Source: Planctomycetales bacterium
GTDB lineage: Bacteria > Planctomycetota > Planctomycetia > Planctomycetales > Planctomycetaceae
Reading direction: 5' to 3'
NCBI GenBank assembly: GCA_026400835.1
Contig: JAPLOA010000066.1
Location: 24,554-88,553 of the forward strand
DNA: 64,000 nt
The notes below the pieces were generated by a model. The model searched no databases. It was not told where the DNA came from and saw only the letters and a list, made by a program, of their open reading frames with translations. The translations under genes were made by a program, and so were the position numbers. This document shows, one piece after another, positions 3,091 to 7,519 of this stretch (position 1 is the first letter of the stretch; each line of letters begins with the position of its first letter).

Positions 3091-4125
3091 ATGAAAACAC
3101 ACTTGCTCCTGCTCACGCTTGTTCCCGGGCTACTGCAGTCTTTGGCTGTGGCTCAGGACAATCCCTCGGCCCCTGTGCCCCTGATTTTTGATACCGATAT
3201 TGGTAATGATTGTGACGACGTTCTGGCAATGGGCGTCATTCACTCGTTGCAGAGTCGAGGTCTTTGCCAGCTGCTGGCGGTCACGATTACGAAAGATCAT
3301 GACCAGTGTGCTCCTTTTACGGACGCCATCAACACCTTTTATGGACGTGGCAACATTCCGATCGGTGTTTGTCGCAGCGGGATAACTCCTCAACAGAGTC
3401 GCTTCACGGGATTGGTCATCGAGAAGAACGGGGATGCTGATCGGTATCCACATGATCTTCGCTCGGGCAAGGATGCTGCGGATGCAGTCAAAGTCCTGCG
3501 ACAGGTCTTGTCATCTCAAGCGGACGGAAGTGTTGTGATTGCTCAGGTGGGCTTTTCGACGAATCTGGCCAACTTGCTGAAGTCGCCTGCGGATGACATC
3601 AGTCCTTTGACGGGTCGCGAGCTGGCGATCAAAAAGGTGAAGCTGGTTTCCGCGATGGCGGGAGCGTTTGCACCGATCAATGGTCAGCCTCATCCGGAAT
3701 ACAATGTCACGGAAGACGTGGCGTCCGCGAAAACTTTGGCGACGGAATGGCCAACAGCGATTGTTTACAGTGGCTTTGAAATTGGTCTGGCGATTCCTTA
3801 TCCGGCGTCCAGTATTCTGAGCGACTATCAGTATGTACCTCATCATCCATTGAAAGAGTCATACGTGCTGTATGAGCCACCACCGCATAATCGTCCGACC
3901 TGGGACTTGACCAGTGTTTTGTATGGTGTGTTGCCGGATCGCAACTACTTTGGCATCTCGCCGAAGGGTTCTGTGTCGGTGGATGACAAAGGATTCACGA
4001 CGTTTACTCCGTCAGAAAACGGGTTGCATCGCTATCTGACGCTGACGGCCGAGCAGCAGGTTCGAGTTACAGAAGCTTTGGTCCAGCTATCGAGCGAACC
4101 GCCGCATCTCAGTCCAACCAACTGA
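3091..4125 (+). CDS. Exported inosine-uridine nucleoside hydrolase family protein
   Basis: Predicted to split ribonucleosides into base and ribose. A signal peptide (hydrophobic 4-20, likely cut near AVAQ-D) precedes the family metal site DTDIGNDCDD at residues 34-43, the N-terminal Asp cluster that binds calcium and ribose in nucleoside hydrolases. At 344 residues it is close to family length. Ribokinase starts 8 bases after its stop, so the two are very likely one operon: nucleoside cleavage outside the cytoplasm, then phosphorylation of the ribose. Many planctomycete paralogues have untested substrates, so the exact nucleoside is unknown. Confidence 0.85.
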   Translation: MKTHLLLLTLVPGLLQSLAVAQDNPSAPVPLIFDTDIGNDCDDVLAMGVIHSLQSRGLCQLLAVTITKDHDQCAPFTDAINTFYGRGNIPIGVCRSGITPQQSRFTGLVIEKNGDADRYPHDLRSGKDAADAVKVLRQVLSSQADGSVVIAQVGFSTNLANLLKSPADDISPLTGRELAIKKVKLVSAMAGAFAPINGQPHPEYNVTEDVASAKTLATEWPTAIVYSGFEIGLAIPYPASSILSDYQYVPHHPLKESYVLYEPPPHNRPTWDLTSVLYGVLPDRNYFGISPKGSVSVDDKGFTTFTPSENGLHRYLTLTAEQQVRVTEALVQLSSEPPHLSPTN

Positions 4126-4133
4126 GCCGTCCC

Positions 4134-5060
4134 ATGGCAAAACGCGCTAGAATTATCGTTGTCGGTTCGATCAACATGGATCTGGTGTTTCGAACGCACC
4201 AGCTTCCTCGACCGGGAGAAACCAGGACAGGCCATAGCTTTCGACAGTTCCCCGGTGGAAAAGGTGCCAATCAGGCTATTGCTGCGGCACGACTGGGGGC
4301 TCAGGTTTCGATGGTCGGGCGAATCGGTGACGACGGTTTTGGCCGAACGCTGATTGACGGTTTGACCGAAGAAGGCATCGATACGAGTTTCGTAAAGGTG
4401 ACGCCGAATTGTTCGAGTGGGCTCGCGGTGATTGGCGTCGAAGACAGTGGGCAGAATTCAATTACGGTGATTCCCGGAGCCAATGGATTCGTCACGCCAG
4501 ATGATGTGATTACGGCGGAAGAATTGTTTCCATCGGCTGATGTTCTGCTCCTTCAGTTTGAGATCCCATTGCCTGCAGTGCAGAAAGCCGTTGAGCTGGC
4601 TCATCGCCATGGCGTGAAGATTATTCTGGATCCAGCACCGTCGGTGAGGGTTGTTCCTGCCGATCTCCTGCAGATTGATGTCATCTGTCCGAACGAAACA
4701 GAGGCCGAGTCACTGTCCGGGCAGGTCGTGGATTCGGTTGAGACGGCGATGTCTGCTGTTCAGCAAATTGGCGGTCTTGGCCCGCAAATCAGTCTCGTCA
4801 CTTTGGGATCGCAGGGCGTGGTTGTGTTCGACGGGAAAACCTCGGAACACGTGCCGCCGTTCAGTGTGGATGCGGTCGACACGACGGCCGCGGGCGATGC
4901 CTTCGCTGCAGCCTTTGGAATCGCCCTTGCAGAAGAGATGTCGGTTTCTGAGGCGACTCGTTTCGCGGCTGCAGCGGGTGCTCTGGCGACAACTCAACAC
5001 GGAGCCCAGCCAGCGATGCCGACGCGAGATGCGGCCGAGGTCCTTCTGCGAGGCCGATAG
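4134..5060 (+). CDS. rbsK: Ribokinase (PfkB family)
   Basis: Phosphorylates D-ribose to ribose 5-phosphate with ATP in the cytoplasm. The N-terminal substrate motif GGKGANQAIAAARLGA and the C-terminal anion-hole motif DTTAAGD at 249-255 are present, with D255 as the expected catalytic base; the usual DTTGAGD has Ala in place of the first Gly. Length (308) matches ribokinases. ATG at 4134 follows the nucleoside hydrolase stop by 8 bases, supporting co-transcription. No ribose transporter is encoded nearby, so how ribose released outside reaches this enzyme is open. Confidence 0.92.
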   Translation: MAKRARIIVVGSINMDLVFRTHQLPRPGETRTGHSFRQFPGGKGANQAIAAARLGAQVSMVGRIGDDGFGRTLIDGLTEEGIDTSFVKVTPNCSSGLAVIGVEDSGQNSITVIPGANGFVTPDDVITAEELFPSADVLLLQFEIPLPAVQKAVELAHRHGVKIILDPAPSVRVVPADLLQIDVICPNETEAESLSGQVVDSVETAMSAVQQIGGLGPQISLVTLGSQGVVVFDGKTSEHVPPFSVDAVDTTAAGDAFAAAFGIALAEEMSVSEATRFAAAAGALATTQHGAQPAMPTRDAAEVLLRGR

Positions 5061-5083: not shown

Positions 5084-6016
5084 CTATTTCTTATCATCCA
5101 AAACAGGTCTGACAGTTTTCTGCTCCCGAAACAATGTCTGCAGCTTGTGCTTCCGAATTCGAAATGCGGTGCCATGATTGCGAGCAGATCCATCAGGGCG
5201 AAGATGCATGCGAAGTTCAACGATAATGTCACCACTGGCAGCCAGTTCAAGCAATCGTTTCGCGGATGGTTCCTGATACCACGTCACTGTCTTGTACCAG
5301 AATTCTTCATCAGCCCCCTTCTCTCTTGATTCTGCACCGATGAAGACGGAATGAGCGTGTTTCTCCTGAAGGCGTTGTTCCAAAACTTTCAGGCTCCAGT
5401 GAGCGATAGCGACATTGTTGCAATGCAATTCCAGCACATCGCCCTGCGCCGTTACGACGAGCTGCAGGTGAGCTTCGTTCTTTCGACTGGTGACTGAGAG
5501 ATACCACGCCTGCCGTCCGTTGGGATCTTTGTAGCCATATTGCTGAATTCGTTCAGCCGCTGTCAGACCATCCAGCCATTCCGGCTCCTTCAGGAACAGG
5601 TTCATTTTCTCCTGATCGTCGAACTCTGTTTCTGAATCGCGATAAGCCTTGATCTCCATTCCCTGAAAATCACCGCGTGGAGAATTGTTTTCCGGGATCT
5701 CCAGAAGCGTTTCCAATGTGTATCCAACGCCTGTGTCGCCGGGGCGAAGAGTCTTCACAAAGCCGCGGGCGGATACTTTGTCAAACTGAACGAGGAATTC
5801 CTGAAGGATCGATTCATGCGACTTCGCGACTGTGGATGCGGCTTGTTGACTTGCGGCGCAATGAACTGACGTCAATAAGAGCGACAGTAAAAACAAGTAC
5901 CTGCAGAATGTCTGAATCAGGAACTTCCGCCTTCGCGTTTGCTCGCGAAATTTTTCAGCAGATCTCATCTCAAATGTACTGCCCGGATTGTTTTCAAGGA
6001 TTTTATTTCGCGACAC
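5084..6016 (-). CDS. Exported MvaI/BcnI-family endonuclease-like protein
   Basis: The body matches the MvaI/BcnI restriction endonuclease family (MutH-like fold): GVGYTLETLLEI around E102, the catalytic-type signature D116-FQGM-E121-I-K123, and a C-terminal HGTAFRIRKHKLQTLF block typical of these enzymes. Unlike a cytoplasmic restriction enzyme it has a basic n-region (RRRKF, residues 28-32), a hydrophobic segment about 33-50 and a possible cleavage site near CAAS at 53-56, so it is probably exported or anchored. No methyltransferase gene is near. An internal ATG at residue 17 would still leave the signal segment. Likely roles are extracellular DNA digestion or nutrient scavenging; this is inference, and activity is untested. 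Confidence 0.75.
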   Translation of the reverse strand: MSRNKILENNPGSTFEMRSAEKFREQTRRRKFLIQTFCRYLFLLSLLLTSVHCAASQQAASTVAKSHESILQEFLVQFDKVSARGFVKTLRPGDTGVGYTLETLLEIPENNSPRGDFQGMEIKAYRDSETEFDDQEKMNLFLKEPEWLDGLTAAERIQQYGYKDPNGRQAWYLSVTSRKNEAHLQLVVTAQGDVLELHCNNVAIAHWSLKVLEQRLQEKHAHSVFIGAESREKGADEEFWYKTVTWYQEPSAKRLLELAASGDIIVELRMHLRPDGSARNHGTAFRIRKHKLQTLFREQKTVRPVLDDKK

Positions 6017-6153: not shown

Positions 6154-7519
6154 TTACGACAAGGCGGCCTGAATCACTTCGCCATGCACATCTGTCAGTC
6201 GGAAATGACGCCCCTGATACTTGTAGGTGAGTTTCTTGTGATCAACTCCGGCCAGATGCAGCAAGGTCGCGTTGAGATCATGAACATGGACGGGATCTCG
6301 AACAATGTTGTAGCTGAAGTCGTCTGTCTCACCGATCGTTGTTCCCGGTTTGATTCCGGCTCCAGTCATCCAGATCGAAAAACATCGTGGATGGTGATCA
6401 CGTCCATAATCATCCGGCGTCATCTTGCCCTGGCAGTAAACCGCGCGACCAAATTCGCCGCCCCGTGATGTTTCTCGGAAGTTCCAGATGCTGATCCCAG
6501 CCGCGATGAAACATCTGCACAAATCGGACGCCTCGCTCGCACAATCGACGAGCCATCAGGCAATTCCACGCAAAGGTTCCCGGCTTCCGAGCATCTTCAC
6601 CGTACAAATCGAACGTGCTGGCCGGCTCACCGGACAAGTCCGTGAGTTCAGGCACCGACGTTTGCATGCGGTAAGCCATCTCGTACTGCGCGATGCGAGT
6701 TGAAATCTCCGGGTCGCCGGATTCTTTCAGCTTCAGAGCATTCATGGCCGCCAGATCATCCAGCATACCTCGACGTACGGAGTTGCTGATTCCCGGCGGA
6801 TTGGAAAGATAAAGAACCGGGTCACCCATCGAACGAAATTTGACGCCCGCATAGCGAGTCGGCAGAAACCCACTTCCCCAGAGCCGATCGTAAAGGGGCT
6901 GATCGCCGGACCCGGAAATCATCGCCACAAAAGCCGGCAGATCACTGTTTTCGCTCCCCAGCCCATAGGACAACCACGACCCAAGACTTGGCCGCCCTGC
7001 TTGCTGAGCACCCGTCTGCACGAACGTAATTGCCGGATCGTGATTGATGGCTTCTGTGTGCATCGTCTTGATAAAGCACAGGTCATCCGCAATCTTCGCT
7101 GTGTGAGGCAGCAGTTCACTCAGCCACGCGCCCGACGCCCCGTGCTGTTTGAATTTGAACTTTGTTGGAGCAATGGGAAAGCTCTTTTGGCCGCTGGTCA
7201 TTCCCGTCAATCGCTGACCCTGACGCACGGAATCCGGCAGTTCCTGACCTCGCATGGATTCCAGTGTTGGTTTGTGTTCGAACAAATCCAACTGCGACGG
7301 TGCACCTGACTGAAACATGTAGATGATGCGTTTGGCCTTCACCGGCAGGTCCGGGAAGCCGCTCAGTCCGGGAGTGCCTGCAGGCACATCGGCCGCTTTT
7401 GACTCCTGCAGCAGGCCTGCCAGAGCAGCCAGGCCAAGGGCCTGTGATCCTCGCGAGAAAAAGTGACGTCGATTCTCGGCGAACAGATGATCGTTCAACA
7501 TTGTCATGGGAAGACTCAC
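6154..7519 (-). pseudogene. DUF1501 protein, broken by internal deletion and frameshift
   Basis: Two reading frames together give one DUF1501 protein of the exported planctomycete type (Tat-like NRRHFF near the N-terminus). The first frame runs from 7519 through [15 protein letters not shown] and LPRNI, then leaves the family sequence near 6463-6470. The second frame resumes at [12 protein letters not shown] and runs to the end. Compared with the intact paralogue at 31198, about 30 residues (the stretch before WGGEFGR) are missing and the frame has shifted. Its start overlaps the stop of the upstream DUF1549/DUF1553 gene (TAGTG; an ATG 4 codons on is an alternative), so it was the second gene of that operon. 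A sequencing or assembly error is the other explanation. Confidence 0.8.

Follow-up and report, generated by a model that had tools for sequence, protein, structure and literature searches.

The closest described enzymes are R.MvaI (CC^WGG) and R.BcnI (CC^SGG), monomeric Type IIP restriction endonucleases that have a sequence family (PF15515), a fold, a D-X4-E-X-K motif and an HGTAFRI block in common with the nuclease analysed here. Unlike these two, the enzymes of its clade combine an export-type N-terminus with the lack of a linked methylase. EcoRII and UbaLAI, which read CCWGG, are restriction enzymes with a B3 domain, and the long-form members of the clade likewise have a B3-like domain ahead of their MvaI-like nuclease. 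In these members, however, a predicted export signal comes first, and the protein encoded in the window (the whole 64-kb stretch of DNA that was analysed) has no B3 domain. MutH, the nickase of methyl-directed mismatch repair, is cytoplasmic and works with MutL; it has the same fold, but nothing was found that links the window nuclease to repair. Mm19 of Mycoplasma meleagridis, which is related to AlwI, is likewise a restriction-type nuclease and is found on the cell surface, but it belongs to another family, has an adjacent methylase gene and a predicted topology that is mostly inside, and no clade-wide signal has been shown for it (PMC4807054). SNIPE, a membrane-bound anti-phage nuclease, likewise separates self from non-self by place and not by DNA modification; it is a GIY-YIG nuclease on the cytoplasmic face (PMC13190303), whereas the window enzyme is of the MutH fold and predicted to lie on the outer side.

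Solitary restriction nucleases are puzzling because they would be expected to kill their host. A survey of 272 solitary restriction genes weighs methylases that lie far off or have decayed, silent genes, a lack of target sites, and repair; neither signals nor the periplasm come up in its text (PMC3488263). The clade described below points, as a whole, to export as an alternative answer. If its enzymes are active and site-specific, they would represent restriction without modification, based on place; if they are not specific, a restriction enzyme would have been recruited as a secreted DNase. Phrase searches of open-access literature for secreted, extracellular or periplasmic restriction enzymes yielded a single paper, in which restriction enzymes are said to accumulate outside cells in cultures. 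Older microscopy reportedly located some restriction enzymes in the periplasm.

The nuclease gene is an intact minus-strand open reading frame (5084-6016 of the window) that encodes 294 residues from an ATG at 5968, the likelier start, or 310 residues from an alternative GTG at 6016. A promoter scan gave nothing exceeding chance. The features are as follows.

5084..5968, minus strand: coding sequence of the predicted exported MvaI/BcnI-type nuclease (open reading frame; PF15515 match; likely start ATG 5968)
5852..5968, minus strand: predicted export signal, residues 1 to about 39, end approximate (hydropathy, charge, N-termini of the clade)
5648..5671, minus strand: active-site motif D-X4-E-X-K, D116, E121 and K123 in GTG numbering (alignment with MvaI; invariant in nine clade members)
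5156..5176, minus strand: HGTAFRI block, common to MvaI (HGTAFRI in both)
5129..5788, minus strand: MvaI/BcnI nuclease domain of MutH-like fold (PF15515, residues 77-296 in GTG numbering; AF2 model)

By sequence and fold, the protein is a member of the MvaI/BcnI restriction endonuclease family, as the preliminary description had proposed from D116...E121-x-K123 and HGTAFRI. A Pfam profile search matched PF15515 (MvaI_BcnI) with E=1.7e-42 (146 bits, the cut-off being 25) over positions 3-227 of 227, and phmmer matched R.MvaI (E=3.5e-15) and R.BcnI (E=0.0016). In the alignment, DFQGMEIK of the window nuclease stands opposite DFHDIEIK of MvaI. In ATG numbering, the active-site residues are D100/E105/K107 and the HGTAFRI block is H265-I271; in MvaI, the H and R of this block serve to read bases. 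Nine clade members show no variation in the D, E and K of the active site or in the RNHG, A and FR of RNHGxAFR. The window nuclease is the sole PF15515 gene in its 7.6-Mb genome; PADLOC labels it a Type II restriction enzyme (a label given by homology alone), and no NCBIfam model was found for it. The MutH-like fold expected of such an enzyme was present in an AF2 model built from 35 sequences (pLDDT 92.7), which matched the MvaI-DNA complex (Z 24.1, rmsd 3.2 over 231 residues), BcnI (Z 22.4), MutH (Z 8.0) and Sau3AI (Z 6.4).

The basic-then-hydrophobic segment noted earlier ahead of the nuclease domain is also there. Several arginines form a basic n-region, followed by the hydrophobic core YLFLLSLLLTSV, possible small-residue cleavage sites and then the domain. 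By our own scoring of charge and hydropathy, which is not a dedicated signal-peptide predictor, net charge ahead of the core is +6 and the best 12-residue mean hydropathy is 2.18 (shuffle p=0.02). The n-region and core expected for Sec export are thus present, and the cleavage site is not clear-cut: cleavage may occur after VHC or CAA, which are less canonical than the sites in most relatives. Since the window N-terminus by itself argues only weakly for export, the N-termini of its relatives were compared.

Relatives were sought in the family, the phylum and 84,980 species genomes. Close relatives (47-85% identity) come from Planctomycetaceae, Pirellulaceae and one member of the Verrucomicrobiales, and distant ones elsewhere are 29-36% identical. 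Fifteen signal-bearing sequences form one branch in the tree (support 100/99), and this group has a single origin. All fifteen have an export-type N-terminus, mostly SPase I-like (for example MTMPLRSARAIIALCLSGSLFLSWMTVRADD and MKKVTHCIIAFSLFFAFARGEE) and in four Pirellulaceae lipoprotein-like, with a lipobox (for example MSACRYWKAIYLSVLLVIVAGC and MPKTTIIYWMLVLAIVTTGC). Homologues outside the clade begin at the nuclease domain or carry another, non-hydrophobic N-domain. The best 12-residue hydropathy is 1.25-3.27 within the clade against 0.16-1.45 outside it; the lowest clade value, that of L046, falls inside the range of the non-clade homologues, and L041, a close ortholog for which TTG is the only start, is borderline at 1.48. 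Among a further 384 genomes of the class to which the Verrucomicrobiales member belongs, 20 loci were read and one clear signal was seen, that of the member already known. Homologues with an N-terminus of this type, which the preliminary description proposed to look for in other planctomycetes, occur in both Planctomycetaceae and Pirellulaceae, and no clade member was found that begins after the hydrophobic segment beside a methylase. A one-off signal or a start-site artefact was rejected, given that clade members in general have such a segment and homologues outside the clade lack it. Because two kinds of signal occur at one place, these N-termini suggest that the conserved trait is export.

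PF15515 is patchily distributed, with any match at all in 16 of 170 family genomes, and broken-looking copies were seen in four genomes (G004, G137, G114 and G048), some of them perhaps through assembly error. Against the 92%-identical ortholog L041, the window nuclease has a dN/dS of 0.10-0.14 over 254 codons, which indicates purifying selection on the mature nuclease; the signal segment evolves fast (0.83 by the ratio of two rates). The gene is useful yet dispensable.

The nuclease was described from the start as lacking a methyltransferase, and a motif scan of flanking DNA extended this to the clade, so that the export-type N-terminus and the missing methylase go together in the whole clade and not in the window gene alone. 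Of the 17 clade loci none has a methylase alongside, whereas 18 of 20 cellular non-clade homologues do, in flanks that vary in length and are sometimes short; the contrast has a probability of about 1e-8 assuming independent loci, which these are not. Of the two outside homologues scored as methylase-less, L062 adjoins a C5 methylase match that is interrupted by stops, and L073 is located at a contig edge. Genome-wide searches covered the methylase families PF01555 and PF00145. Neither has a match on the window's 92-kb contig, the nearest ones being on other contigs, and in a complete clade genome (G059) about 760 kb separate the nuclease from the closest match. Because a linked methylase is absent, the window nuclease does not qualify as part of a Type II restriction-modification system. 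One genome, G562, has both forms: the solitary gene for a predicted exported enzyme on contig 220, and on contig 221 a presumably signal-less MvaI homologue beside a C5 methylase. A conserved C5 methylase was considered as a distant partner and rejected because it is as common in the family without the nuclease as with it. On seven viral contigs (L080-L086), signal-less MvaI/BcnI homologues also occur, with a methylase nearby in none of the seven.

These results bear on whether the enzyme might be cytoplasmic or misread, its segment going unused for export through a wrong start or as an inward anchor, with the cell surviving through weak activity or silence of the enzyme or through protection by a methylase encoded far away. 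The start codon is unproven, PF01555 or PF00145 methylases are present elsewhere in the genomes of most clade members, and restriction genes that stand alone have often decayed or have a distant partner (PMC3488263). Nevertheless, we consider this account unlikely: signals recur across the clade and switch type, positive charge before an N-terminal core orients the remainder outward, the conserved C5 methylase is no commoner with the nuclease than without it, and the dN/dS given above speaks against decay.

Instead, the protein is in our judgement quite probably a solitary MvaI/BcnI-type endonuclease of MutH fold that is exported, with the chromosome protected by location; this estimate leaves its purpose aside. 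It draws on family, fold, an intact active site, the export-type N-terminus of the clade, the lack of a linked methylase and purifying selection, all read from sequence. Counting against this reading are the uncertain start codon and cleavage site, the weak signals of L041 and L046, and the patchy, sometimes broken copies. The nuclease would be made with its signal, pass the inner membrane by Sec export, undergo signal cleavage or lipid attachment, and fold outside the cytoplasm. We infer that the signal is used and cleaved, with lipid anchoring in Pirellulaceae, and that the mature enzyme, probably a monomer, acts in the periplasm or on the cell surface, where it would cleave double-stranded DNA in a Mg2+-dependent manner. 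Cutting may be at a CCNGG-like site and nick one strand after the other, the mode described for the monomeric MvaI and BcnI (PMC4081073). The pattern suggests that the cell escapes self-cleavage by exporting the enzyme; the chromosome would be safe because the enzyme sits across the membrane, location doing the job of methylation. Location is also the simplest protection because sites are abundant, with 258 CCWGG and CCSGG sites in the 64-kb window, the stretch to which all site counts here refer. Within it, CCAGG and CCTGG are under-represented (108 observed against about 168 expected from shorter words), and CCCGG and CCGGG are not.

Four intact clade members (L044, L047, L049 and L053) have some 165 additional residues that separate the signal from the nuclease. 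This N-domain gave no match in Pfam, none by sequence in the PDB and none among 392 phylum genomes (a search run without a positive control), and hhalign showed it to be unrelated in sequence to the N-domain of long homologues that lack a signal (probability 0.2). Only fold comparison gave a match, and the domain was identified as B3-like on that ground: in a model of modest confidence (pLDDT 66), it matched the EcoRII effector domain (Z 10.5) and the UbaLAI B3 domain (Z 10.4), with BfiI and plant B3 domains next in rank. Some clade members are thus predicted to be exported B3-MvaI enzymes, whereas the mature part of the window protein is the nuclease domain alone. Because a B3-like domain accompanies an MvaI-like nuclease in the long form, the model favours retained sequence recognition. 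A B3-like fold behind an export signal is also an uncommon case of this DNA-binding fold.

As to purpose, DNA degradation at the cell surface and periplasmic defence during DNA uptake, the roles named in the preliminary description, are both reasonable and are not distinguished here. The exported enzyme could be a nutritional or biofilm DNase that cuts environmental DNA for P, N, C or nucleosides, or thins biofilm DNA. This would involve the same export step as the solitary exported endonuclease set out above, with a different purpose, and we regard it as a serious possibility, if short of an even chance. Macromolecules accumulate in the planctomycete periplasm (PMC5394234), the AlwI-related mycoplasma surface nuclease is thought to feed its cell (PMC4807054), and clade members have housekeeping genes and sulfatases around them and do not lie in defence islands. 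In the window, the nuclease gene lies next to genes for a ribokinase and for a nucleoside hydrolase that carries a signal-like N-terminus of its own; this pair is kept without the nuclease in 11 genomes of the genus and is not conserved beside the nuclease elsewhere. An enzyme that cuts only at rare sites would also be ill suited to general DNA degradation, and the block for recognition is kept, with a B3 domain added in four members.

Retention of the recognition parts, membrane anchoring of some members and patchiness would fit an extracytoplasmic restriction barrier, in which a sequence-recognising Type II-like endonuclease, equipped in some species with a second recognition domain of B3 type and stationed in the periplasm or at the membrane, cuts foreign DNA as it enters and can do without a methylase, since it never encounters the chromosome. 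ComEC, present in 13 of 13 genomes, is a weak pointer in the same direction, being common in bacteria. In this full form the barrier is put forward tentatively, at rather less than an even chance. As a bare choice between purposes, a barrier to incoming DNA (phage, transformation) is slightly preferred over plain scavenging because the sequence-recognition apparatus seems to be kept, a near-even call. The estimates for the solitary exported endonuclease and for the nutritional DNase overlap because the export step is common to them, and both purposes could be true.

Some secreted bacterial nucleases kill competing bacteria, and an exported nuclease could in principle be a weapon that is released, enters competitors and kills them. 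For the window nuclease we hold this to be very improbable: it has no delivery domain and no conserved adjoining immunity-like partner, and a subgroup of the clade is predicted to be lipid-anchored.

The surroundings of the nuclease genes gave further observations. The pair of nucleoside hydrolase and ribokinase (window 3091-5060, plus strand) is conserved in the genus and may salvage nucleosides outside the cytoplasm; a functional link between the nuclease and nucleoside salvage was rejected, because congeneric species have the pair without the nuclease. In four clade members (L046:8901-12536, and also L016, L050 and L055), the nuclease adjoins, in a conserved arrangement, an altronate dehydratase-like gene and a protein of 548-630 residues that has no Pfam match. 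Upstream of the window nuclease, a DUF1501 gene (window 6154-7519, minus strand) occupies two reading frames, 6410-7519 and 6154-6522, where the G004 ortholog (L018:5674-7125) has one; the split in the window is a frameshift or a sequencing error.
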